Source of the DNA: Lysobacteraceae bacterium
Lineage (GTDB): Bacteria; Pseudomonadota; Gammaproteobacteria; Steroidobacterales; Steroidobacteraceae
NCBI GenBank assembly: GCA_012516015.1
Contig: JAAYXG010000134.1
Span: 1-10,182, forward strand
Reading direction: 5' to 3'
Length of the DNA stretch: 10,182 bases
How positions within the stretch are numbered: the stretch's first letter is position 1; each line of letters starts with the position of its first letter. A program made the position numbers and the translations under genes. Positions 1 to 10,182 of this stretch are shown here, piece by piece. The notes beneath the pieces are model-generated. The model saw only the letters and a list, made by a program, of their open reading frames with translations. It made no database searches and had not been told where the DNA came from.

Positions 1-65
1 GTTGACGGTTGACGGCCAGAGGCGCGTCTTTTCTTGCCGTCGACAGTCAACAGTCAACAGTCAAC
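1..65. repeat. Heptamer repeat forming an imperfect inverted repeat
   Basis: Three exact tandem copies of AGTCAAC lie at 45-51, 52-58 and 59-65, preceded by a degenerate copy, CGTCGAC, at 38-44. On the other side, GTTGACG occurs twice (1-7 and 8-14); it is the reverse complement of CGTCAAC, so the two blocks face each other. Positions 1-16 can pair with 36-51, with one G-T wobble and one mismatch, leaving a loop of about 19 nt. The element may continue to the left of the window. It could be a dispersed intergenic repeat or a transcription terminator of the gene to the left. There is only a short T-rich stretch in the loop and no T-run after the stem, so a classical intrinsic terminator is not well supported. 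Confidence 0.7.
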
Positions 66-84
66 TCGATCGAGGCATCGCGTC

Positions 85-885
85 ATGACGTCCATTCCGC
101 AACGCCCCTCGCCGCGCGATTTCCGCAAGCGGCTGCTCGCTCGCGAATTCCTGATCGGCACGTTCTGCAAGACGCCCACGTCGCATGCGACGGAGATTCT
201 CGGCTCGATCGGCTATGACTTCGTGATGCTCGACGACGAGCATGCGCCGTGGACGAGGCAATCGCTCGAGGTCGGGTTTCTCGGCGCCCGCGCGTTCGGC
301 ATCGCGGGGCTCGTGCGGATCGCGCGGCCGGATGCGAACAGCATTCTCTCGGCGCTCGACGACGGCGCGATCGGCGTCATGGTTCCGCACGTCGCCTCCG
401 CCGAGAAGGCGCGCAACATTGCATCGTGGGCGCGCTACAAAGGCGGCACGCGCGGCTCGGGCATCGGTCGCGGCGGCGACTACGGCGGCCGGCCGATGCA
501 GATGCACTACGAGTCTTCCGATGCAACGACCACGGTGATCGCCATGATCGAGGATCGTGAAGCGATCGAGCATATCGATGAGATCGTCGCGGTCGAGGGC
601 ATCGACGGGTTCTTTCTCGGACGCGGCGATCTGGCTTTGTCGTTGAGCAATGCGTCCGGCCCCGTGCCGAGCGTCGAGGAAGCGGTGAGCCTCGTTGCCG
701 AGGCGGTGCTGAAGAGCGGCAAGGCACTGTGCGCCGTCACGCGCGACATGGCTTCGGACGATGCGAAGAAGATGATCGATCTCGGCGTCACGGTGCTGAT
801 GGTGGCGAGCGATCAGGGTTTCATGCGCTCGGGCGCGCTCGCACAACTCGATCATTTCAAGAAGCTGGTGACGCCGGAAACCTGA
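85..885 (+). CDS. HpcH/HpaI-family aldolase/lyase
   Basis: A 266-residue protein of the HpcH/HpaI (2-oxo acid aldolase / citrate lyase beta-like) family, which are class II metal-dependent enzymes that reversibly cleave hydroxy-oxo acids to pyruvate and an aldehyde or oxo acid. The active-site landmarks of HpaI are visible: LDDEHAPW with the catalytic His53, LVRIARPD with Arg78 that binds the oxo acid, IEDREA with metal ligand Glu156, and FLGRGDLA with metal ligand Asp182. The Gln two residues before the Glu in HpaI is Met154 here, so the specificity may differ. The length is normal for the family. I chose the ATG at 85, with GAGG at 72-75. An in-frame TTG at 34 would run translation through the heptamer repeat and is unlikely. 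The gene converges on the amidohydrolase-like gene. The family is clear; the substrate is unknown. Confidence 0.9.
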   Translation: MTSIPQRPSPRDFRKRLLAREFLIGTFCKTPTSHATEILGSIGYDFVMLDDEHAPWTRQSLEVGFLGARAFGIAGLVRIARPDANSILSALDDGAIGVMVPHVASAEKARNIASWARYKGGTRGSGIGRGGDYGGRPMQMHYESSDATTTVIAMIEDREAIEHIDEIVAVEGIDGFFLGRGDLALSLSNASGPVPSVEEAVSLVAEAVLKSGKALCAVTRDMASDDAKKMIDLGVTVLMVASDQGFMRSGALAQLDHFKKLVTPET

Positions 886-906
886 GGAGATCCTCGATCG
901 TCGGGG

Positions 907-959
907 GATACGAACGATGCCTTTTGTCGCCCGCGAGCTCGATTGAGCCTGTTCGTATC
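907..959. terminator. Candidate bidirectional terminator between convergent genes
   Basis: A perfect 9-bp inverted repeat, GATACGAAC at 907-915 and GTTCGTATC at 951-959, sits in the 72-bp gap between two convergent genes. The right arm overlaps the stop codon of the minus-strand gene (958-960). The loop is 35 nt and contains a smaller palindrome, CGAGCTCG, at 934-941. The position suits shared termination, but the loop is long and no T-run follows, so Rho-independent termination is not proven. It could also be an mRNA 3'-end protecting structure. Confidence 0.4.
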
Positions 960-1902
960 AGATGCCCAGCAGCTCGAGCGGATTGCGGGAGATCATCTTG
1001 TGGATGTCTTCATCCGAGTAGCCCAGGTTCATGCAGATCCTGATCACGTTGCGGAAGCCGACGACCGGATGGTCGGCGCCTTGCTGACCGAGGTCCGACG
1101 CGAGAATGGTTCGGTCCACCGTGCCCGCCTTGATGAGCTTGTCCAATTCTTCGGGCGGAAACGGATCACGCTTGCGTCTCGGAACCGGGATGAACATGCA
1201 CAACGAGTGCTCGATGTAGGCGCCCATCGACACGAGCTCTTTGATGTCATCGTACGAGGCGCCGACGACGAAGCTCGGGTGATTGACGAGCAGCCGCTTA
1301 ACGCCGCGCTTCTTCGCCTCCTCGAACACCGGGAAGATTTCCGAGATGTGGCAGTGGCCGCCGGCGAGGATCACATCGTTCTGCGCGATGAGATCGAGGA
1401 TTTCCTTGACGTCGTCTCTGACGTTGCCGTTGCCATCGAGCGGCGAGAGCTGATCGATCGGCAGCAGTTTCTTCTTCGTGCGCGGGAAGCCGACCTTGAG
1501 TCCGAAGGGGGATTCGCAATGGTTCTTCGAAGAGAACGTCGGGAGCCACACGAGCTTCGCGCCGAGCGCGATGCCGTGATCGACCGCGTGCTTGTTGAAG
1601 CCGCCCAGCGCGTTGTTGAGCGGCACGCCGGAGAACATCTTGACGTTGAGATGCGCATAGGCCTGGTTGAGCATCTCGGTAATGGGCGTCGCCGAGTAGT
1701 AGTGGTCCTTGATCAGCATCGCGCGGAAGCCCGCGGCGGCGGCTTCTTGCATGGCCTCGATGTGATTGATGTCCCGAGCCATGACGGACGGGCCGGAATG
1801 ACAATGCATGTCCACGGCCCCCACGAGCAGGCGGGAGATACGATCCTCGATCTCCTGATCGGTATTTCCCGGTGTGCTTCCGGGGTTCAGGTTCGCGGCC
1901 AT
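958..1902 (-). CDS. DUF6282-type protein, amidohydrolase superfamily
   Basis: A 314-residue protein resembling the DUF6282 group of the amidohydrolase (metal-dependent hydrolase TIM-barrel) superfamily. Its metal-site motifs appear in the usual order: DMHCH with His33 and His35 after the first strand, IKDHY with Lys65 (a possible bridging carboxylated lysine), GGHCH with His183 and His185, VNHPS with His208, and ASDLGQQG with Asp270 near the C-terminus. This is consistent with a cytoplasmic hydrolase or decarboxylase-type enzyme using one or two divalent metals. There is no signal peptide. An ATG 15 nt upstream (1917) is in frame, but GAGGTG lies 5 nt before the ATG at 1902, so the shorter start is preferred. 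The gene is divergent from the LysR regulator and shares its promoter region, so it is a likely target. The reaction is not known for this family; hydrolysis of an amide or lactone-type intermediate is an inference. Confidence 0.8.
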   Translation of the reverse strand: MAANLNPGSTPGNTDQEIEDRISRLLVGAVDMHCHSGPSVMARDINHIEAMQEAAAAGFRAMLIKDHYYSATPITEMLNQAYAHLNVKMFSGVPLNNALGGFNKHAVDHGIALGAKLVWLPTFSSKNHCESPFGLKVGFPRTKKKLLPIDQLSPLDGNGNVRDDVKEILDLIAQNDVILAGGHCHISEIFPVFEEAKKRGVKRLLVNHPSFVVGASYDDIKELVSMGAYIEHSLCMFIPVPRRKRDPFPPEELDKLIKAGTVDRTILASDLGQQGADHPVVGFRNVIRICMNLGYSDEDIHKMISRNPLELLGI

Positions 1903-1907
1903 AAAGG

Positions 1908-1913
1908 CACCTC
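1908..1913 (-). promoter_or_regulatory. Ribosome binding site deciding the amidohydrolase-like start
   Basis: Read on the minus strand this is GAGGTG, placed 5 nt before the ATG at 1902. No comparable site precedes the in-frame ATG at 1917, so it supports the shorter protein. Confidence 0.6.
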
Positions 1914-1921
1914 GCATGCTA

Positions 1922-1948
1922 CCGGTGCTCGATTCTGGTCAGCACCGG
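1922..1948. promoter_or_regulatory. Probable LysR-type operator (T-N11-A palindrome)
   Basis: CCGGTGCT at 1922-1929 and AGCACCGG at 1941-1948 are perfect reverse complements separated by 11 nt. The inner bases give T-N11-A, the classical LysR-type recognition geometry. The site lies in the 101-bp divergent gap, 20 nt upstream of the amidohydrolase-like start codon and 55 nt upstream of the LysR start codon. This position fits autoregulation together with control of the divergent gene. I did not find a convincing second copy before the operon at 3138. Confidence 0.7.
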
Positions 1949-1968
1949 CCCTCACTGTCCAATAGCCC

Positions 1969-1981
1969 ACCCGATACGGGT
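1969..1981. promoter_or_regulatory. Short palindrome, possible second operator half
   Basis: ACCCG at 1969-1973 and CGGGT at 1977-1981 are perfect reverse complements around ATA. The site lies 22 nt before the LysR start codon and about 20 nt from the larger palindrome. LysR-type promoters often carry a second, weaker activation site, but this element is short and has a different sequence, so the assignment is tentative. Confidence 0.3.
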
Positions 1982-2003
1982 CATAACCAAAGGATGTGAC
2001 TTC

Positions 2004-3029
2004 ATGGATTTCGCGCAGCTCAAACGCTTCATTGCCGTGGTCGAGGGCGGCAGTCTCGGCAAGGCGGCCGAGGCGCTCAGCCTGTCGCAGCCGGGGTTGA
2101 GCAAGAGCATCCAGCAGCTCGAAGCGTACTTCGGAGAGCCGCTGCTCTATCGCGGCACGAAGGGCGTTACGACGACCGAGCTCGGCAAAGCGGTTTATCG
2201 CCGCGCGAAGCGCGTCCTCGCGGAATGGCATCAGCTCGAGAACGAGCGCGCCGCCATTTCGGGCGGCTTCACCGGTCACGTCACGGTAGGCGTCGCACGC
2301 GGAACGGGCTTTCTCGGGAGAGTGATTCCCGCCGCCAACGCCAAGTTGTCTCAGAGCCGCTATTCCGTGCGACTCACCGTGGTGAGCGGGGTGGCCGAGG
2401 AGCTCGTGCCCGCGCTGCAGCTCGGCGAGCTGGATTTCGCCATCGCACCGTTGGATGCGATCGTGGGTAAGCCGGATCTGGTGGGGGAGGCGCTGTTCTA
2501 TGACCGCTGCGGCCTGTTCGTCGATGTGAACCATCCGCTCGCTCGCGTCGGTTCGGTCAGTATCGAGCAGCTCACGAAGTACAGTTGGCTCTACTCCGCC
2601 GACGTCATTTCTTATTACAACGCGCTGTGCGCGCTCGCGCACAGCCGAGGCGTGCAACCGCGCGCCACGACCATTACGAGCAACTCGGTGGTGTATCTGA
2701 ACGCCGCCACGATCGGCAGCGAGTTCATCGGCATCTTGTCGATGGACTCGGTCGAGGATCACGTGATCGCCGGAAAGCTGTTAGAGATCGTGCTGAAGCC
2801 GTCGCAGCGAGCCCAGGTCGCGACGGCTGCGGTCGAGCGGCCTGTGGGTTTCTTGATGCGCGCCGACGCGCATTTGTCGCAGCTCGCGCGCGTGCTCCAG
2901 AAGGAGATCTATGAGCTCAGTCCGACGCTCGGATATCCGCTGCTGCCGCGGCGTACGCAGAACGCGAGCGAGAAGAAACGAAGCAAGAAGAAAACGAAGC
3001 AAGGCTCCGGTAAACGCTCAAAGGGATAA
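2004..3029 (+). CDS. LysR-type transcriptional regulator
   Basis: A 341-residue LysR-family regulator. Residues 1-60 form the winged helix-turn-helix, starting MDFAQLKRFIAVVEGGSLGKA and continuing through AAEALSLSQPGLSKSIQQLE. A linker helix follows, then a periplasmic-binding-protein-like effector domain at about residues 90-300, with the usual GELDFAIAP and NHPLARVG landmarks. The last 23 or so residues (from about 317) are very rich in Lys, Arg and Ser, an unusual extension beyond the normal end near residue 310. The start has AGGA at 1991-1994. The gene is divergent from the amidohydrolase-like gene across a T-N11-A palindrome and sits 108 bp upstream of the seven-gene operon on the same strand. 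It is a likely regulator of one or both, probably responding to a pathway metabolite. The family is certain; the inducer is unknown. Confidence 0.93.
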   Translation: MDFAQLKRFIAVVEGGSLGKAAEALSLSQPGLSKSIQQLEAYFGEPLLYRGTKGVTTTELGKAVYRRAKRVLAEWHQLENERAAISGGFTGHVTVGVARGTGFLGRVIPAANAKLSQSRYSVRLTVVSGVAEELVPALQLGELDFAIAPLDAIVGKPDLVGEALFYDRCGLFVDVNHPLARVGSVSIEQLTKYSWLYSADVISYYNALCALAHSRGVQPRATTITSNSVVYLNAATIGSEFIGILSMDSVEDHVIAGKLLEIVLKPSQRAQVATAAVERPVGFLMRADAHLSQLARVLQKEIYELSPTLGYPLLPRRTQNASEKKRSKKKTKQGSGKRSKG

Positions 3030-3125
3030 CGATCGGCTATGGGTTGTTGAGCAAGGGCTAATGGACGGCATGTGCTCGTGCCCCGACAATGCTTCTCGTC
3101 AATCGCAGCGCCGCGTCATGCGGTC

Positions 3126-3134
3126 AGGAAGAGG
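3126..3134 (+). promoter_or_regulatory. Purine-rich ribosome binding site before a GTG start
   Basis: The purine run AGGAAGAGG precedes the GTG at 3138 and fixes the start of small subunit 1. An upstream ATG (3072) is in frame, but its extra 22 residues do not resemble the family and no comparable site precedes it. Confidence 0.55.
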
Positions 3135-3137
3135 AAC

Positions 3138-3671
3138 GTGTCGACGAACTGGGTTTTTCAGGGGCGTTGCTGGAAATTCGGCGACAACATCCCCACCGAT
3201 GCACTGGCGCCGACGCACGTCATGTTCAAGACGCCGCAGGAAATGGCGGCGTCCGTACTCGAGACCGTCAACCCGGAATTTCCAAAGAAGGTCCGTCCGG
3301 GCGACATCCTGGTTGCAGGGCGCAACTTCGGTTGCTCCTCCGGGCGCGCACTCGCCACCAAGGCGCTCGCGGCCACGAAGATCGGCGCGGTCGTTGCCGA
3401 GCAGTTCTCCCGCACGTTCTATCGCAATTGTCTGGAGATCGGTTTGCCGCTCATGGAAGCGCGCGGCGTACACGCCTTGGTCAACGACGGCGATGAAGTG
3501 CGCGTCGACATCAAGGCGGCAACGCTCGAGAACCTCACCACGGGCAAGTCCATCCAAGGTACGCCCCCGTCGCCGTTTCTGCTGAAGATGTTGGAAGCGG
3601 GCGGACTCATTCCGCTGCTGAAGTCAGGCAAGTTTGCGGCGGGCGATTTTGCTGGCGCGGCGAGACGGTGA
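3138..3671 (+). CDS. LeuD/aconitase-like small subunit 1 (altered motif)
   Basis: A 177-residue swivel-domain protein of the LeuD / aconitase small-subunit family, which normally pairs with a LeuC-like [4Fe-4S] subunit to catalyse reversible (de)hydration of a hydroxy acid. Family landmarks are KFGDNIPTD (residues 13-21), AGRNFGCSSGR (60-70) and SRTFYRN (91-97). The active-site motif, usually SRE followed by His or Gln and Ala, reads GRALA here: Arg70 is kept but the Glu is Ala71. The companion small subunit 2 keeps REQA, so this copy is the divergent one. The GTG start is chosen from the ribosome binding site and because the family begins just before the FGDN motif. It is the first gene of the apparent operon, 108 bp after the LysR gene and 7 bp before M24-like A. 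Its likely partner is the cluster-less large subunit 1, which is an inference. Confidence 0.88.
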   Translation: MSTNWVFQGRCWKFGDNIPTDALAPTHVMFKTPQEMAASVLETVNPEFPKKVRPGDILVAGRNFGCSSGRALATKALAATKIGAVVAEQFSRTFYRNCLEIGLPLMEARGVHALVNDGDEVRVDIKAATLENLTTGKSIQGTPPSPFLLKMLEAGGLIPLLKSGKFAAGDFAGAARR

Positions 3672-3678
3672 GCGGCCC

Positions 3679-4782
3679 ATGCTGAAGTTGAACCCACAAC
3701 GCAAGGCAGAGTTTCTCGAGCTGATGGCGGCGCGCGGCTGGGACATGCTGCTGTTCTACGGCGATACGTGGCGCAAGGATCATTTTCGCTGTCTCGTGAG
3801 CGTGTGCTTCACGGGTCCGCAAGCGGTCGCGTTGCTGACGAAGGAAGGCGAGGTACGCGCCGTCGTGACGCATCCCTGGGACGTCGAGCCCGTGAAGGCT
3901 GGAACGGGCGGTGCCGTGACGTACGTGCCGCGTCTCATCGAGGGATTGAAGACGCTGTTGCGCGATGCCGGTAAAGCGCTCGTTGCCGTCAATGGGCTCG
4001 AGCAGATGGAAGCGCGCTTTGCGCGCGTCGTAGCAGAGCTTTCCGGCGCGGCACCCGTTTCGGCGACGAAGGACGTCGAGGAGATCCGCCGCGTCAAGAC
4101 ACCGGAGGAAATCGAGGTGATCCGCAAGGCTGCGGAGCTCGCCGACCGCGGCTACCAACACTTCGTGAGCGTCGCTCGCGAAGGCATGACGGAGTACGAG
4201 CTCGTCGCGGAAGTAGAAGGCTTCGTCAAGGCGCACGGCGCCGAGGACAACTTCATGTTGGTCGCCTCGGGAGGCACCGAGGTGACGGGAATGAAACCGC
4301 CGACGGCACGCAAGCTGCGCACGGGCGATTCGGTGATCACCGAGCTCACGCCGCAGATCGACGGCTACTACGCGCAGATCTGCCGCACGCTCGTCATCGG
4401 ACCGCCTTCCGAAAAGCAACTTCAGTCGTACGCCATTTTCGCGGAAGCACAGCAGGCCGCGCAGGACTTGCTGCGCCCCGGCGTCGATATCTCCGATGTG
4501 GCGCGCGTGCAGAACGATGTCTTCCGCAAGCACGGCTTCGGCGAATACACCGGACCGCAGTACACGCGCGTGCGCGGCCACAATTTGGGGCTGTACCCGG
4601 ATGAGCTGCCGCACGTGCTCGAGAGCACGCACTACACGTGCAAGAAGGACATGGTGATCATCTGTCACCCCAATACTTACTTGCCGCTTTCGGGATACAT
4701 GGTGTTCGGCGACACGCTGCTGGTGACCGAAACGGGTTGTGTGTCGCTGAATCAAACCGAGAGGAGGCTGTTCCAGGTATGA
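3679..4782 (+). CDS. M24-family protein A with non-canonical metal ligands
   Basis: A 367-residue creatinase/aminopeptidase-P-fold (M24) protein with an N-terminal creatinase-like domain (about 1-135) and a C-terminal pita-bread domain (about 140-367). Canonical M24 metallopeptidases bind two metals with Asp, Asp, His, Glu, Glu. Here the first Asp is Glu222 (in VITELTPQ), the second is Gln233 (in YYAQICRT), the His is kept as His301 (in RGHNLGLYPDE), the first Glu is His330 (in VIICHPN), and the last lies in FGDTLLVTETG, where the expected Glu is Gly344. A dinuclear peptidase centre is therefore unlikely; a metal-free hydrolase like creatinase, or an altered metal site, is possible. Creatinase's catalytic His region has no His here (Met205-Lys206). 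The ATG at 3679 is preferred over an in-frame upstream start that would overlap small subunit 1. Its stop overlaps the next start (ATGA). Confidence 0.85.
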   Translation: MLKLNPQRKAEFLELMAARGWDMLLFYGDTWRKDHFRCLVSVCFTGPQAVALLTKEGEVRAVVTHPWDVEPVKAGTGGAVTYVPRLIEGLKTLLRDAGKALVAVNGLEQMEARFARVVAELSGAAPVSATKDVEEIRRVKTPEEIEVIRKAAELADRGYQHFVSVAREGMTEYELVAEVEGFVKAHGAEDNFMLVASGGTEVTGMKPPTARKLRTGDSVITELTPQIDGYYAQICRTLVIGPPSEKQLQSYAIFAEAQQAAQDLLRPGVDISDVARVQNDVFRKHGFGEYTGPQYTRVRGHNLGLYPDELPHVLESTHYTCKKDMVIICHPNTYLPLSGYMVFGDTLLVTETGCVSLNQTERRLFQV

Positions 4783-5717
4783 AAAGAGGACTCGTCAGCT
4801 GGGACAAGATCAACGAGCTGCCGCCGGAGGAGTTCGCGGCGCGGCTCGCTGCAGTTCACGCCGTGGCGCGCGAGAAGGGCGTCGACGCGGTCGTCGTGTA
4901 CTCAGACGTATGGCGCTCGAACGACGCGCGCTATCTCTCGAACTTCATGCCTTACTGGAATCGGGCGTTCGTCGTCGTGACGCCCGATGAGAACCCCATT
5001 CTGCTGTGCGCGCTGTCGCCGCGGGTGTATCCATGGATCAAGACAGTGACCATGCACGAGACCATCATCGCAAGCTCGAGCCCGCCGGCGACGCTCTTCA
5101 AGCTTTGCGCCGAGCGCGGCTGGACGCGCGTGGGCGTGTGCGATCTCGACGGCCTGCCCGAGGACCTGCATGCCGAGTTGACGGCGGGTGCGCTCGAGCT
5201 GGTCGATATCTCCCGCAGTGAGATTCGTCCCGCGCCCGTCGAGAGCGAGGTGCGAATGCACGCACGTGCTGCTCGAATGGCGCGCGAGGTGCTCGAGCAG
5301 GAGCTCGCTAGCGGAGGAGCGAAGACGGATCACGAGCTCACCGGGCGATTGGAGCGAGTGTTGCGTCGCGCGGGCGCGGAGGACGTGGTCGTTCTGGTTT
5401 CCGATGGCGAAGGTCCGCCCATTCCAGCGGAGGGCCGTCCGGTCGGCCCGCACACGTCGGTCGTGGTCGCGAACGAGTACAACGGCCACTGGGCAAAGGT
5501 CACGCGCAACTTCGCGGGTGTGACATCGGGATTCGATCCGCGCGATGGCGTGACTCAGTTGCGCGAGATTCTTTCGGGGCCGTACTCGTGGGAGAGCATT
5601 GCCGACACGAAGGCCGACGCCGTCGTTTCGCTGCAATTGCAGATCCCCGCGAACGGTCGACAGTACTACTACGGCGATACTTGTCTGCAGAGTCGGGAAG
5701 GATTGCGCGTTCTATGA
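4779..5717 (+). CDS. M24-like protein B, strongly degenerate paralogue
   Basis: A 312-residue protein with the same layout as M24-like A. The N-terminal creatinase-like domain (about 1-145) includes VVYSDVWRSNDARYLSNF, which parallels the FYGDTWRKDHFRCL region of A. A shortened pita-bread domain (about 155-312) follows. The strand pair carrying the two metal Asp residues in active M24 enzymes reads as Val229 and Lys240 (in GHWAKVTRNF). The GHxxG, Glu and final Glu motifs are not recognisable, and the protein is about 55 residues shorter than A. It is most likely a non-catalytic partner or an enzyme with a new chemistry. M24 proteins commonly form dimers, so an A-B heterodimer is plausible (inference). 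It overlaps A by 4 bp (ATGA) and large subunit 1 by 4 bp. A GGAGG precedes the start. The reading frame is intact and codon usage matches its neighbours, which argues against a decaying pseudogene. Confidence 0.75.
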   Translation: MKRGLVSWDKINELPPEEFAARLAAVHAVAREKGVDAVVVYSDVWRSNDARYLSNFMPYWNRAFVVVTPDENPILLCALSPRVYPWIKTVTMHETIIASSSPPATLFKLCAERGWTRVGVCDLDGLPEDLHAELTAGALELVDISRSEIRPAPVESEVRMHARAARMAREVLEQELASGGAKTDHELTGRLERVLRRAGAEDVVVLVSDGEGPPIPAEGRPVGPHTSVVVANEYNGHWAKVTRNFAGVTSGFDPRDGVTQLREILSGPYSWESIADTKADAVVSLQLQIPANGRQYYYGDTCLQSREGLRVL

Positions 5718-6994
5718 ACATGGTCGAGAAGATCCTGGCCCGCAAGAGCGGCCAGAAAAGCGTCGCGCCGGGCGACGTCGTGCTCGCCGACATCGATCTG
5801 ATGTGCATGCACGACCTCAGCGCGAACTTCGTCATGAAGGTGTTCGAGCACGAGATGGAGGGCGCGAGCATCGCAGATCCGAACAAGCTCGCGTTCGCCT
5901 TCGATCACAACTTCGCCCCGGCAACGCGCGAAGCAGCGGAGGCGCTGGCGGCCGTGCGCAGGTTCGCGAAGAAGCACAAAGTAAAGAACGTCTTCGACAG
6001 CGGGTGCGGTAGTCTGCATCACGTCATCATGGAAGCGGGACTCGTCACGCCCGGCATGATCGTCGTCGGCTGCGATTCGCACTCGCCGATCTACGGTGCG
6101 ATCGGCGCGTTCGGCACCGGTATCGGCAACAACTCGATGGCCGCGCTGGGCTTCACGCAGAACAAGGGATGGTTCAAGGTACCCGAGACCATCAAGATTC
6201 ATTTTCACGGCACGCCGATGAAGTCGGTGATGCCGCGCGACATCTCGCAATATCTAGTCGGCAAGCTCGGCGAGGACGGCGCCATCTACAAGGCGTTGGA
6301 GTACGCGGGGCCGTATATCGAGTCGCTCGAAGTCAACGACCGGGCGCTATTCCCGCTGCAGGCGATCGATGTCGGCGGCAAGTGCGGCTTCGTGAATCCG
6401 GATGAGAAGACCGTGCGCTATGTGCAGCGGCTATTCGCGTCCAAGCCGAGTGTGCCCGAGTTCGAGATGCTCGCGAACGATGCGGATTGTCGCTACGCGG
6501 AGATCGTCGACATCGACGTTAGCCGCATCGAGCCGCAGGTGGCGTGTCCGCCGACGGTCGGCAATGTGAAGCCTATCGACGCCGCCGTCGGGACGCCGAT
6601 CAATGTCGCGGAGGCGGGCGGAAGTACGGGCGGAAGGCTGAGCGACATCCGTGCGCTCGCTCGCTGCCTTGCCAATCGGCGCATTCATCCGGACGTGCGT
6701 CTGCAGGTCGTACCCGCATCGCGCGACATCTACTTGGCCGCGCTCAAGGAAGGTTTGTTCGAGACGCTGCACATGGCGGGCGCGAACATCTTCCCGCCGA
6801 GCGCCGGCTCCAATCAAGCGTTCAACATGGGCGCGCTCGCGGAAGACGAAGTCATGATCTCCACGCAGGCGCGCAACTTCCCGGGACGCAACGGCCATCC
6901 CAAAGCCCGTCACTTCCTGGCATCGCCGCTCACCGTCGCGGCCTCGGCGCTGACAGGCAAGATCACCGACCCGCGAACGCTGGAGGTCCAATGA
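5714..6994 (+). CDS. LeuC/aconitase-like large subunit 1 lacking Fe-S cysteines
   Basis: A 426-residue protein of the LeuC / homoaconitase / aconitase large-subunit family. Conserved parts include FDHNFAPAT (63-71), the CGSLHHVIMEAG segment with its conserved His, DSHSPIYGAIGAFGTGIG (121-138), and ARNFPGRNG near residues 386-394. All three cluster ligands are replaced. The GSCTGGR motif reads GGSTGGR, with Ser304 in place of Cys. The CxxC motif, normally PGCGxC, reads PSAGSN, with Ala364 and Asn367 in place of the two Cys. Other Cys residues (31, 98, 120, 224, 259, 278, 318) are not at ligand positions. A [4Fe-4S] cluster of the usual type is therefore unlikely. The ATG at 5714 overlaps the upstream stop (ATGA); Met at 5720 is an alternative. 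It is an adjacent paralogue of large subunit 2. It may be a new enzyme, a structural subunit or a pseudoenzyme. Confidence 0.9.
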   Translation: MNMVEKILARKSGQKSVAPGDVVLADIDLMCMHDLSANFVMKVFEHEMEGASIADPNKLAFAFDHNFAPATREAAEALAAVRRFAKKHKVKNVFDSGCGSLHHVIMEAGLVTPGMIVVGCDSHSPIYGAIGAFGTGIGNNSMAALGFTQNKGWFKVPETIKIHFHGTPMKSVMPRDISQYLVGKLGEDGAIYKALEYAGPYIESLEVNDRALFPLQAIDVGGKCGFVNPDEKTVRYVQRLFASKPSVPEFEMLANDADCRYAEIVDIDVSRIEPQVACPPTVGNVKPIDAAVGTPINVAEAGGSTGGRLSDIRALARCLANRRIHPDVRLQVVPASRDIYLAALKEGLFETLHMAGANIFPPSAGSNQAFNMGALAEDEVMISTQARNFPGRNGHPKARHFLASPLTVAASALTGKITDPRTLEVQ

Positions 6995-8250
6995 GTCAGA
7001 CAATCGCGGAAAAGATTCTCGCTGCGAAAGCCGGTGTCGATCGCGTTGCGCCGGGTCAGATCGTCGACGCCTATCCCGATCTCGTCATGAGCCACACGGC
7101 GACGTGGCGCTCCGTCAGCGTGATGAAGAAGATCGGCGCGAAGCGACTCTACGATCCCGACCGACTCGCGATCGTGCTCGACCACATTTCGCCGGCGAAG
7201 AGCGAAAAGTACGCTGCCGACCAGCAGACCTCGCGAAACTTCGCGCGGGAATACGGCATCAAGAAGTTCTATGACGTGGATGCCGGCATCGCGCATTTGG
7301 TGTTGATGGAGCATGGCCACGTCAAACCCGGCGATCTGATCGTCGGCACCGATTCTCATTGCACGATCTACGGCGCGTTGGGCGCCTTGGGATCGGGTAT
7401 CGGCTACACGGAAGTCGCTTCCGTGTGGGTGACCGGTAAGCTGTGGCTGAAGGTGCCGACGACGATCAAGATCACCTTGAACGGCCGCTTCGCCGCCGGC
7501 GTCAGTGCGAAGGATCTGATGTTGCATCTCATCGGCACGCTCGGCGCCGATGGCTGCGGCTACAAGTCGGTGGAGTTCTATGGCAGTGCGCTGCCGGAGA
7601 TGAGCATCTCCGAGCGCATGACGATGGCCAATCTCGCGATGGAGATGGGCTCGAAGTGCGTGTTCATTCCGTCCGACGAGAAAACGAAGGAATGGCTGCT
7701 GCCCCGGCTCGAGGATCCGGCGAGCTACCGGCCCGTCTTCGCCGACGAAGACGCGTCCTACGAGCAGAGCATTGAAGTCGACTTGTCGAAGCTCACGCCC
7801 ATGATCGCGTGTCCGCACCAAGTCGAGAATACGAAACCGATCGACGAAGTCATCGGCACTCGGATCGACCAAGCGTTTCTCGGCTCGTGCGCGAACGGGA
7901 AATACGAAGACCTCGCGGTTGCCGCCCGCATCCTCGAGGGCCGCAAGATCGATCCGCGCGTGCGACTGATCGTCACCCCCGGATCGAAGCAGATCATGCT
8001 GGAGGCGATGCGCTCCGGCGTGCTCGCCACGCTCATTGAAAGCGGTGCTTTGGTGACGAACCCGGGCTGCGGCGCGTGCGCGGGCGATGGCGGCATGATG
8101 GCCGATGGCGAAGTTTCCCTATCCACGGCGAATCGCAATTTCGTGGGCCGCATGGGCAGCAACAAGAGCAGCATCTATTTGTCGAGCCCGGCGACGCTCG
8201 CGGCCTCGGCGCTCAAAGGTGCGATCGCGGATCCGCGCGAGTTCTACTAG
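6991..8250 (+). CDS. LeuC/aconitase-like large subunit 2 with intact Fe-S site
   Basis: A 419-residue hydro-lyase large subunit of the LeuC/homoaconitase family. The three [4Fe-4S] ligands are present: Cys300 in LGSCANGK, and Cys360 and Cys363 in NPGCGACAG. It also keeps LDH (63-65), TDSHCTIYGALGALGSGIG (120-138) and the NRNFVGRMG substrate loop. Together with small subunit 2 just downstream it should form a functional dehydratase/isomerase acting on a hydroxy di- or tricarboxylate. Isopropylmalate, homoaconitate and dimethylmaleate hydro-lyases share this fold, and the exact substrate cannot be read from the sequence. GGAGG at 6982-6986 precedes the ATG, which overlaps the stop of large subunit 1 by 4 bp. 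A catabolic role is more likely than leucine synthesis, because no leuA or leuB lies nearby and the neighbours are aldolase- and hydrolase-like. Confidence 0.93.
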   Translation: MSQTIAEKILAAKAGVDRVAPGQIVDAYPDLVMSHTATWRSVSVMKKIGAKRLYDPDRLAIVLDHISPAKSEKYAADQQTSRNFAREYGIKKFYDVDAGIAHLVLMEHGHVKPGDLIVGTDSHCTIYGALGALGSGIGYTEVASVWVTGKLWLKVPTTIKITLNGRFAAGVSAKDLMLHLIGTLGADGCGYKSVEFYGSALPEMSISERMTMANLAMEMGSKCVFIPSDEKTKEWLLPRLEDPASYRPVFADEDASYEQSIEVDLSKLTPMIACPHQVENTKPIDEVIGTRIDQAFLGSCANGKYEDLAVAARILEGRKIDPRVRLIVTPGSKQIMLEAMRSGVLATLIESGALVTNPGCGACAGDGGMMADGEVSLSTANRNFVGRMGSNKSSIYLSSPATLAASALKGAIADPREFY

Positions 8251-8277
8251 GAATGTCTTTTGGATGGTGAGTGCGAG

Positions 8278-8790
8278 ATGCAAGACAAGATTACCGGCCG
8301 GGTTTACAAGTTCGGCGACAACGTCAACTCGGACATCATCATCGCGGGTCGCTATCTGATCTACATCGATCCGGTGAAGCTCGCGGAGCATGCGTTCGAG
8401 ATGCTCGGCGAGGGTTTTCCGGAAAAGCTGCGAAGCTTCGACATTCTCGTCGCCGGCCGCAACTTCGGCTGCGGCAGCGCTCGCGAGCAGGCGTCCACCG
8501 CGATCAAGGGTCTCGGTATCAAAGCCGTGGTCGCGGCTTCTTTCGCGCGCACGTTCTATCGCAACGCGATCAACGACGGGCTGCCGATCTTCGAATGTCC
8601 GGCGGTGTACGATGCGGTGGCCGAGGGCGATGAGATTTCGATCGATCTGAAGAAGGGTGTGATTTCACACGCCGGCGGCGAACATGAGTTCCCGCGTATT
8701 CCCGAATCGGTCGCGAAGATACTCGAGCTCGGGGGCCTCGCGAGCTACTTGAAATCGACGCTCGAGCTCGATCGGGAAGCGACTGCTTAG
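8278..8790 (+). CDS. LeuD/aconitase-like small subunit 2
   Basis: A 170-residue swivel-domain small subunit of the LeuD/aconitase family. KFGDNVNSD (11-19), AGRNFGCGSAREQA (59-72) with the substrate-binding Arg69, and ARTFYRN (90-96) are intact. The protein begins a few residues before the FGDN motif, as usual. The ATG at 8278 has GGTGAG 6 nt upstream; a TTG at 8260 is an alternative that would add six residues. It follows large subunit 2 after 27 bp and should be its catalytic partner, with both chains contributing to the active site. It is shorter than small subunit 1 and retains the Glu that copy has lost. It ends two bases before the bicupin start, so the two are almost certainly co-transcribed. 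Confidence 0.93.
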   Translation: MQDKITGRVYKFGDNVNSDIIIAGRYLIYIDPVKLAEHAFEMLGEGFPEKLRSFDILVAGRNFGCGSAREQASTAIKGLGIKAVVAASFARTFYRNAINDGLPIFECPAVYDAVAEGDEISIDLKKGVISHAGGEHEFPRIPESVAKILELGGLASYLKSTLELDREATA

Positions 8791-8792
8791 CC

Positions 8793-9734
8793 ATGTACGA
8801 CAAGTCAGATCCGCGTGCGTCGCTGGCGGCACCGAAAGGTGGCGCGCAGTTCGGTACGACCCAGATGCCGGCATCCATTTGCCGCTACTATCAGGATAGC
8901 CCTGTCGATGACGATGCGAACGGCCGGGGCTGGTACACCCGTGGACAGAATCTCGTCGTTCACTGGATCGAGGCGAAGCCCGGCGCGGCGTTCACGCGCA
9001 CCGCTCAAGTGGACGAGTACATGGTCGTCGTCCCCGATGACGACACGCCTTATGAGGCCACGGCGAACGGCGAATCGGTGCGCGGTGAAGGTCATCAACT
9101 GCTCATCGTTCCGCCGGGCGACAGCAAAATCAGCTTGCCGAAGGGCGGGCGTATCGCGAGAATTTTCTCGACGCAGTCGCCCGATCTGAACGCAAAGTGC
9201 TCGAATGCGGCGACGTACGCGCAACCCGATCCGTCGCATCCTCCGTTCAAGCCTTGGCCCGCGCCGCCCGCGGGCTACAAACTGCGACAGTACGAGCTGC
9301 AGAGAGGCGAGCGGGCGCCGGGCCAGATCGGTCCGATGTGGCGCTGTACGACGATCATGTTGAGCTTTCCGCCCGTGAGCCGCCGCGCGCGCGACGCGAC
9401 GAAGCTATCGCCGCATAGTCATTATGACTTCGATCAATGCTCGCTCATTTTCGAGGGCAACTACATTCATCACTTGCGCTGGCCGTGGAGCTCGAACAAG
9501 CACGAGTGGCGGGCAGATGAACATATCGAGATCGGTTCGCCTTCGGTGACCATCATTCCCGCTCGAGTCATCCATACTTCGGAAGCTCAAGCGCCGGGTC
9601 CGAAAGGCAATCGGATGGCGGACATCTTCGCGCCGCCTCGGCTCGATTTTTCTCTCAAGGAGGGTCTGGTGAGAAACGCCGATGAGTACCCGATACCGGA
9701 GGAGTCGTTGCAGGGCGAGCCAACGAAGCGATGA
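8793..9734 (+). CDS. Bicupin-like protein of unknown function
   Basis: A 313-residue protein with two apparent cupin halves. The C-terminal half (about 180-285) carries a metal-type cupin motif: SPHSHYDFDQCSLIFEGNY gives His208 and His210, Gln215 in the Glu position and Gly222. The second motif, in SVTIIPARVIHTSEA, supplies His261. The N-terminal half (about 45-130) has the beta-barrel pattern, with VDEYMVVVPDD followed by LLIVPPGDSKISLP, but no HxH motif, so it is likely structural. A 3His or 3His-plus-Gln metal site suggests an isomerase, dioxygenase, lyase or small-molecule sensor. No signal peptide is visible. It is the last gene of the operon, 2 bp after small subunit 2, and converges with the dehydrogenase gene. 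I do not recognise a named family, so the cupin fold is the supported call and the enzymatic role is open. Confidence 0.7.
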   Translation: MYDKSDPRASLAAPKGGAQFGTTQMPASICRYYQDSPVDDDANGRGWYTRGQNLVVHWIEAKPGAAFTRTAQVDEYMVVVPDDDTPYEATANGESVRGEGHQLLIVPPGDSKISLPKGGRIARIFSTQSPDLNAKCSNAATYAQPDPSHPPFKPWPAPPAGYKLRQYELQRGERAPGQIGPMWRCTTIMLSFPPVSRRARDATKLSPHSHYDFDQCSLIFEGNYIHHLRWPWSSNKHEWRADEHIEIGSPSVTIIPARVIHTSEAQAPGPKGNRMADIFAPPRLDFSLKEGLVRNADEYPIPEESLQGEPTKR

Positions 9735-9744
9735 AGCGACGCTG

Positions 9745-9760
9745 AGCGCTGACGGGCGCT
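9745..9760. terminator. Weak hairpin in the convergent gap
   Basis: AGCGC at 9745-9749 and GCGCT at 9756-9760 can form a 5-bp stem with a 6-nt loop, in the 44-bp gap between the bicupin gene and the convergent dehydrogenase gene. There is no T-run, so termination is supported only by position. Confidence 0.25.
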
Positions 9761-9778
9761 GCTCTAAATCCGACGCGT

Positions 9779-10182
9779 TCAGCCGCGCCCCACGAATGGC
9801 ATTTTCGTGGGCAGCAACGTCGTGAAGAGCATGTTCGCTTCGATCGGCAAGTTCGCCATGTGCAAGACGGCCTGTGCCGCGAGCTGCGTGTCGAGCTTGG
9901 GAATCGTGCTCGGATTGGCTTTCGGGCGTGCGGATCGAGCGCCGATCTCGCTTTCGATTCTGCCGACATCGATCTGGCCGCAAGCGATGTCGAAGTCGCG
10001 CGCGTCGAGCGCGATCGATTTGGTGAGCCCGGTGACCGCATGCTTGGCCGCCGTGTAGGCGATCGAGTTGCGCCGCGGTACCTGTGCGGAGATCGAGCCG
10101 TTGTTGATGATCCGACCGCCGCGCGGCGTCTGATGCTTCATGATGCGTACGGCTTCCTGAATGCACAGGAACATGCCGGTGA
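9779..10182 (-). CDS. Short-chain dehydrogenase/reductase (5' end off the window)
   Basis: The C-terminal 133 or so residues of a classical short-chain dehydrogenase/reductase. The N-terminal Rossmann half with its glycine motif lies beyond the right edge, because the frame is open to position 10182 (reading [10 protein letters not shown]). Visible landmarks are [12 protein letters not shown] with the catalytic Ser, and YTAAK with the catalytic Tyr and Lys. After these, where many members have a PG loop, this protein has ACGQIDVG. The C-terminus reads MPFVGRG. The enzyme would oxidise or reduce a hydroxyl/oxo group with NAD(P). It is convergent with the operon, so it belongs to another transcript and its link to the pathway is uncertain. 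The Met at 10174 is internal, not the true start. Confidence 0.9.

Follow-up and report, generated by a model that had tools for sequence, protein, structure and literature searches.

Aconitase relatives are textbook iron-sulphur (Fe-S) hydro-lyases. Creatinase, of the M24 fold, functions without metals, and creatinase and ectoine hydrolase are single-gene homodimers. Among the described systems closest to the locus treated here are isopropylmalate isomerase and homoaconitase of the two-subunit type (LeuCD, HacAB and DmdAB; 4kp1, 4kp2), with which it has the fold, the subunit split and the acid-base and arginine residues in common. Aconitase X (AcnX; cis-3-hydroxyproline dehydratase and phosphomevalonate dehydratase) is likewise an aconitase relative with altered cluster ligation; in the excerpts drawn on here, AcnX binds an Fe-S cluster via other cysteines (PMC8184944) and forms Δ1-pyrroline-2-carboxylate, which a reductase converts to proline (PMC5144071). 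We analysed a stretch of 10,182 nucleotides (nt), called the window below, from a Lysobacteraceae bacterium (assembly GCA_012516015.1, contig JAAYXG010000134.1, positions 1 to 10,182). Six genes lie on its + strand at 3138-8790 in the order small1-M24A-M24B-large1-large2-small2, and the open reading frames (ORFs) and families given for them in a preliminary description were confirmed. The genes probably form one undescribed breakdown pathway, because their relatives travel together in distant bacteria. We put at somewhat better than even, about 0.55, the chance that this is a dedicated catabolic pathway in which a canonical hydro-lyase acts with a two-subunit M24 enzyme and with an isomerase or lyase that has the aconitase fold and no Fe-S cluster.

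The preliminary description had called one hydro-lyase pair canonical and the other altered, and counts of the cluster ligands agreed. The three Fe-S cluster cysteines, which mark an Fe-S hydro-lyase, were kept in 12/12 large2 sequences, whereas in large1 a Cys was found at the equivalents of Cys358, Cys421 and Cys424 in 0, 3 and 0 of 35 sequences, and at these sites in 0, 20 and 0 of 120 listed homologues. Large1/small1 lacks the three-cysteine set of an aconitase-type Fe-S hydro-lyase and has the serine base, acids and arginines of an aconitase-type active site: D64, H65, H102, D121, S122, H123, R387 and R392 of large1 were present in all 35 sequences and all 120 listed homologues, and the catalytic Ser and Arg motif of small1 (SSGR) was intact in 14/14. 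The equivalents of N258, N446 and S643 were changed, N258 to L and N446 to A or S. As the alignments read, large1/small1 has lost the cluster ligands while the Ser base, the acids and the carboxylate-binding arginines stay. The aconitase fold of large1 was assigned with confidence. The AcnX signature, a Cys aligned with mAcn His147 together with the other AcnX cysteines, was absent from large1, which has His102 in 35/35; large1 has a His, not a Cys, at the site of AcnX Cys273, and is much nearer LeuC/HacA.

Against family models, the large and small subunits of both pairs scored above subfamily cut-offs and short of the equivalog cut-offs in the models matched. Small1 (154.7 bits) and small2 (177.3 bits) both exceeded the TIGR02087 (LeuD/DmdB) cut-off of 108.95 bits. 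Large1 was placed in the HacA/LeuC family by PRK00402 (421.6 versus 385) and TIGR01343 (412.8 versus 385.7), and fell below the TIGR02086 cut-off (396.9 versus 410.15). Large2 exceeded PRK00402 (536.1 versus 385) and fell below the equivalog cut-offs of TIGR02083 (461.5 versus 610.65) and HacA_Meth (413.1 versus 550). Large2/small2 shares the Fe-S cysteines with LeuCD, HacAB and DmdAB, while large1 lacks their cluster ligands and neither pair reaches an equivalog cut-off.

M24A exceeded the Pfam Peptidase_M24 cut-off (129.3 versus 23) and aligned with the M24 prolidase 1pv9 across its C-terminal two thirds, residues 133-364. Set against the metal ligands of 1pv9 (D, D, H, E and E), the M24A positions read E222/Q233/H301/H330/G344 in 14/14 sequences, with four of the five usual ligands replaced. 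M24A does not have the five-ligand set of an M24 metallopeptidase, and may have a metal site of another kind. M24B, which is shortened by comparison with the prolidases, matched Creatinase_N only (27.6 versus a cut-off of 22), is predicted from modelling to have the pita-bread fold, and in several of the loci lacks the greater part of its catalytic half. That M24B is a frameshift or annotation fragment was ruled out: its form of 312 amino acids (aa) is conserved, being 74-86% identical in 19 other alignment rows taken from 120 listed matches, and shorter forms occur elsewhere. The M24 pair has the pita-bread fold in common with creatinase and ectoine hydrolase, but here there are two diverged genes with different site residues. 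M24A/M24B is a separable pair, because Neorhizobium galegae has both without aconitase genes nearby. On the N. galegae plasmids (L119:11220-22982 and L120:8192-19977) the order is hydantoinase A/B, M24A, M24B-like, MmgE/PrpD, NMT1 ABC transporter and amidohydrolase; M24A is a single ORF in L120, and the annotation of L119 divides it into two genes. A second M24A/M24B pair was seen in genome G596 (L105:528-2680, - strand), about 7 kb from large2/small2 and with no other aconitase genes adjoining.

The preliminary description had also proposed, as a check, to look in other genomes for co-occurrence and conserved order of the six genes, and had named their never recurring together as a refutation. 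The idea survived this test: co-occurrence was borne out. The order was not, beyond a core described below. A profile of large1, built from the window and 19 of the 120 listed homologues, detected seven loci in named genomes. L028 (34% identity) was among these and was set aside as a hydro-lyase nearer large2 (39.6% versus 34.0%) with no M24 neighbours shown. The named-genome loci, the window and the genomes from two family draws made up a set of 16 large1 genomes, which carry the recurring gene set. M24B and large1 were present in 16/16. Small1 was present in 14 and M24A in 13; where either was missing, the contig stops within M24B or a little beyond it. Large2 was whole in 15/16 and small2 was present in 15/16, the exception in both cases being G624, where large2 is cut at the end of a contig to a piece of 68 residues (L083). 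The large2/small2 block was on a separate contig in five (G595, G596, G597, G598 and G953), and a reductase of the ornithine cyclodeaminase (OCD) type was found in 12.

Presence and absence gave the strongest test. When 200 genomes were drawn from the family of G598, nine had a large1 orthologue (E<1e-200; next genome 2e-108). Large2 (E<1e-140, 74-80% identity) and M24B (E<1e-30) were found in exactly these nine, and OCD (E<1e-90) in eight of them, the contig of the ninth, G953, ending in M24B. None of the four was detected in the remaining 191 genomes at the cut-offs used; 19 of 28 genomes matched large1 at only 5.5e-101 to 2.0e-108, and these matches were counted as ordinary paralogues. The family of G593, sampled in a second draw with 199 genomes, had large1 in five and large2 in four of those and in no other genome; in the fifth large2 is cut by the contig end. 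Pairwise divergences were correlated between genes, with r of 0.86-0.99 (including the 68-aa large2 fragment of L083). Presence/absence and co-divergence together ruled out chance neighbours. That the genes serve one pathway is well supported, since the set recurs in 16 genomes and the presence and absence of large1, large2 and M24B match.

Few genomes have the gene cluster. When 398 genomes were drawn evenly across the window's phylum and the best few candidates in each were scored, large1 was matched at 1e-100 only in the window's own genome. In a draw of 196 genomes from the window's order the genes were lacking, the best match outside the window's genome (G000) being 32% identical. Contamination of the window's assembly was not shown: in 4-mer composition the G000 contigs correlated with the Peristeroidobacter locus at r 0.88-0.94 and the window at 0.95, a weak check with 7/18 contigs masked.

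At least four different arrangements were seen among the loci compared. In the window and in Peristeroidobacter soli (L023) the order is LysR-small1-M24A-M24B-large1-large2-small2-cupin. In L024, small1-OCD-M24A-M24B-large1 is followed by a TonB receptor and an MFS transporter and then by large2-small2. In L079-L082, small2-large2 is divergent from MFS-small1-OCD-M24A-M24B-large1; L025, L026, L027 and L029 have the same run from MFS to large1, with large2/small2 on another contig, and in L077 the large2/small2 block and the main block are convergent. The loci L083-L085, about 50% identical, have OCD-small2-large2-large1-small1-M24B-M24A with MFS downstream, the genes being seen where the contig allows. 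A strict six-gene order was ruled out, large2/small2 being separable and OCD often lying between small1 and M24A; leaving L083-L085 aside, OCD is so placed in nine of the 11 loci with both genes on the contig, the exceptions being the window and L023. The conserved core is small1-(OCD)-M24A-M24B-large1, in which small1, M24A, M24B and large1 are found together on every contig that reaches far enough, and large2/small2 shifts as one unit, being adjacent, divergent, several kb off or on another contig.

In the pathway that we infer, with its catalysis, partnering, absence of any metal and substrate class, large2/small2 would be an ordinary [4Fe-4S] hydro-lyase acting on some di- or tricarboxylic acid. 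Large1/small1 would be a heterodimer that most likely carries out proton-transfer chemistry without an Fe-S cluster, on the large2/small2 intermediate or a neighbouring one; double-bond isomerisation, tautomerisation, epimerisation and elimination of a good leaving group are candidate reactions. M24A/M24B would be a two-subunit creatinase-type enzyme, probably metal-free and most likely cleaving a C-N or ring bond, in which M24A would supply the active residues and M24B complete the dimer. In most relatives the set would be completed by an OCD-type reductase that uses NAD(P)H on an imine or keto acid and, in many cases, by an MFS importer. We advance more tentatively, and at slightly less than even odds, the claim that large1/small1 is the first aconitase-superfamily branch active without any Fe-S cluster, in an undescribed catabolic pathway shared with a canonical Fe-S hydro-lyase and an M24 heterodimer whose usual metal site is gone, so that two operon pairs would each be without their family's metal-centre ligands and keep the rest of the site. 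The folds are known, but neither the conserved combination nor the loss of both sets of metal-centre ligands appears to have been described, and no account of such a gene cluster, or of an aconitase relative without an Fe-S cluster, was found among the matches listed in the open full-text literature. A conserved branch without the ligands but with the acid-base machinery would show the fold's catalysis minus the Lewis acid. The linked genes (both hydro-lyase-type pairs, the M24 pair, in most cases a reductase and in many a transporter) point to an unassigned route of catabolism; Peristeroidobacter soli offers a named entry point to the window-type set, and Neorhizobium galegae one to the M24 pair.

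Several points weigh against this pathway. Loss of the cluster ligands could also mean a non-catalytic subunit, and a different metal could be bound by H102, H103, C120, D121 and H123 of large1 or by E222, H301 and H330 of M24A. The chance of nine identical genomes, 8.5e-16 under independence, overstates that independence because the genomes are related. The 1e-200 cut for large1 was chosen after the score gap was seen, and the limits for large2, M24B and OCD were preset, with weaker matches hidden below them; G597, for instance, has an ordinary paralogue resembling large2 that scores 1.3e-125 and is 50% identical. OCD is absent from the window and L023, so either the pathway varies or another enzyme substitutes. 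The flanking genes vary widely among lineages.

The clues to the substrate point in two directions. The genes might serve breakdown of a nitrogen-containing ring, as in a lactam, an amidine, a cyclic imino acid or a hydantoin-like compound. The M24 pair would then open the ring, the altered pair dehydrate or isomerise a hydroxy-amino acid and OCD reduce the imine. The nearest relative of OCD is Δ1-pyrroline-2-carboxylate reductase (6t3e, E 1.4e-37), ectoine hydrolase and creatinase are among the M24 relatives, and in N. galegae hydantoinase A/B genes accompany the M24 pair. AcnX provides a precedent, type I acting ahead of an imine reductase; a reductase takes the AcnX product on to proline (PMC5144071). 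Ring opening would be modelled on ectoine hydrolase or creatinase and dehydration on AcnX with cis-3-hydroxyproline; we regard this account as unlikely. Less likely again is a lower route for aromatic acids, with the altered pair as an allylic isomerase and the canonical pair as a hydratase of an oxo-homoaconitate-like tricarboxylate, e.g., 4-oxalomesaconate, ahead of an aldol cleavage. It would accommodate the LigY-like protein that immediately follows large1 in L079 and has counterparts in L080 and L081, UbiD beside small2 in L105, an aromatic-acid type MFS in L024 (by eye; Pfam gives only MFS_1/Sugar_tr), a GCV_T-domain protein in L023 (LigM-like by eye), the HpcH/HpaI aldolase of the window and, for a tricarboxylic substrate, MmgE/PrpD beside large2 in L106. 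Each such neighbour, however, is confined to one or a few lineages, no ring-cleavage dioxygenase was found among the flanking proteins scanned (the flanks being scanned in part), and OCD and the M24 pair get no natural role.

Large1/small1 and M24B could also be catalytically dead paralogues with a regulatory or structural part, large1/small1 controlling large2/small2, for example. The missing cluster cysteines of large1, the loss of some substrate-side residues (N258, N446), the truncated M24B of several loci and the 4-nt large1/large2 overlap in the window would all fit. The invariance of the large1 acid-base and arginine residues and of the small1 Ser and Arg would be unusual for a dead subunit, however, and the canonical pair that would be controlled is on another contig in 5/16 genomes, while small1, M24A, M24B and large1 stay together; we think this account, like the aromatic one, improbable.

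The features of the window are collected in Table 1.

Table 1. Coordinates of the genes and ORFs in the window.
Feature	Positions	Strand	Remarks
HpcH/HpaI-type aldolase	34-885		
DUF6282 protein	958-1917	-	228.9 bits; orthologue in L023
LysR-type regulator	2004..3029	+	Pfam LysR_substrate and HTH_1; upstream of cluster
small1, small (swivelling) subunit of altered pair, LeuD/DmdB-type	3138..3671	+	GTG start
M24A, creatinase/prolidase-fold subunit, usual M24 metal ligands replaced	3679..4782	+	Pfam PF00557
M24B, shortened M24 pseudo-subunit, probable M24A partner	4779..5717	+	
large1, HacA/LeuC-type large subunit without Fe-S cysteines	5714..6994	+	
large2, canonical HacA/LeuC-type Fe-S large subunit	6991..8250	+	PRK00402
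small2, canonical LeuD/DmdB-type small subunit	8278..8790	+	TIGR02087
Cupin-like protein	8793..9734	+	assigned by eye; last gene of likely unit
SDR, ORF cut at right end	9779-10180	-	identified by comparison with L023 and L025

The window ORFs overlap by 4 nt at M24A/M24B, M24B/large1 and large1/large2, and gaps of 7, 27 and 2 nt separate small1 from M24A, large2 from small2, and small2 from the cupin-like ORF. Judged from spacing only, small1 through the cupin-like gene would be one transcription unit. The six genes proposed earlier as one unit are tightly spaced, but the unit is likely one of seven genes, because the cupin-like ORF begins 2 nt past small2; the relatives mostly add OCD, and many add MFS. 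A consensus promoter scan of 2900-9900, which carries little weight, gave 0 found versus 1.3 expected. The LysR protein is likely the regulator of the adjoining cluster; its orthologue also adjoins the cluster in L023 and, divergently, in L024. The cupin-like protein had no Pfam family even at E 0.5 and no NCBIfam match, and among the loci compared it was present only in L023 besides the window.

The OCD protein of L024 belongs to the ornithine cyclodeaminase/mu-crystallin family by Pfam PF02423 (141 versus 24 bits); no OCD match was found in G000 at E 1e-10, and the top match in the genome of L023 has 30% identity. An MFS transporter gene is present in many relatives. The LigY-like amidohydrolase directly 3' of large1 (L079:14283-15386; 5vn5, E 8.4e-119) lies with an NMT1-type transporter gene, and matched the 4-oxalomesaconate hydratase 2gwg at E 8.4e-68. 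In G597, two MmgE/PrpD proteins and ABC-transporter-like genes stand beside large2/small2 (L106:2023-7405).

Among plasmids, 523 records matched large1, none at 60% identity or above, the ten listed being 37.6-38.8% identical. A large-subunit tree of 53 rows was midpoint-rooted, with a warning that long branches meet. L076, the large2 of G598, was placed within the large2 group, and large1 of the window, L023 and L024 branched amid metagenome-assembled sequences of Bryobacteraceae/Bryobacterales (L025, L029). With the root so placed, the large1 branching suggests that the cluster has moved between phyla. The carriers of the recurring cluster are soil-type bacteria. In Peristeroidobacter soli a beta-keto acid cleavage enzyme (BKACE) lies next to the HpcH/HpaI aldolase orthologue (L023:3211-5091), and a CoA-ligase-like protein is encoded at L023:202-2295.

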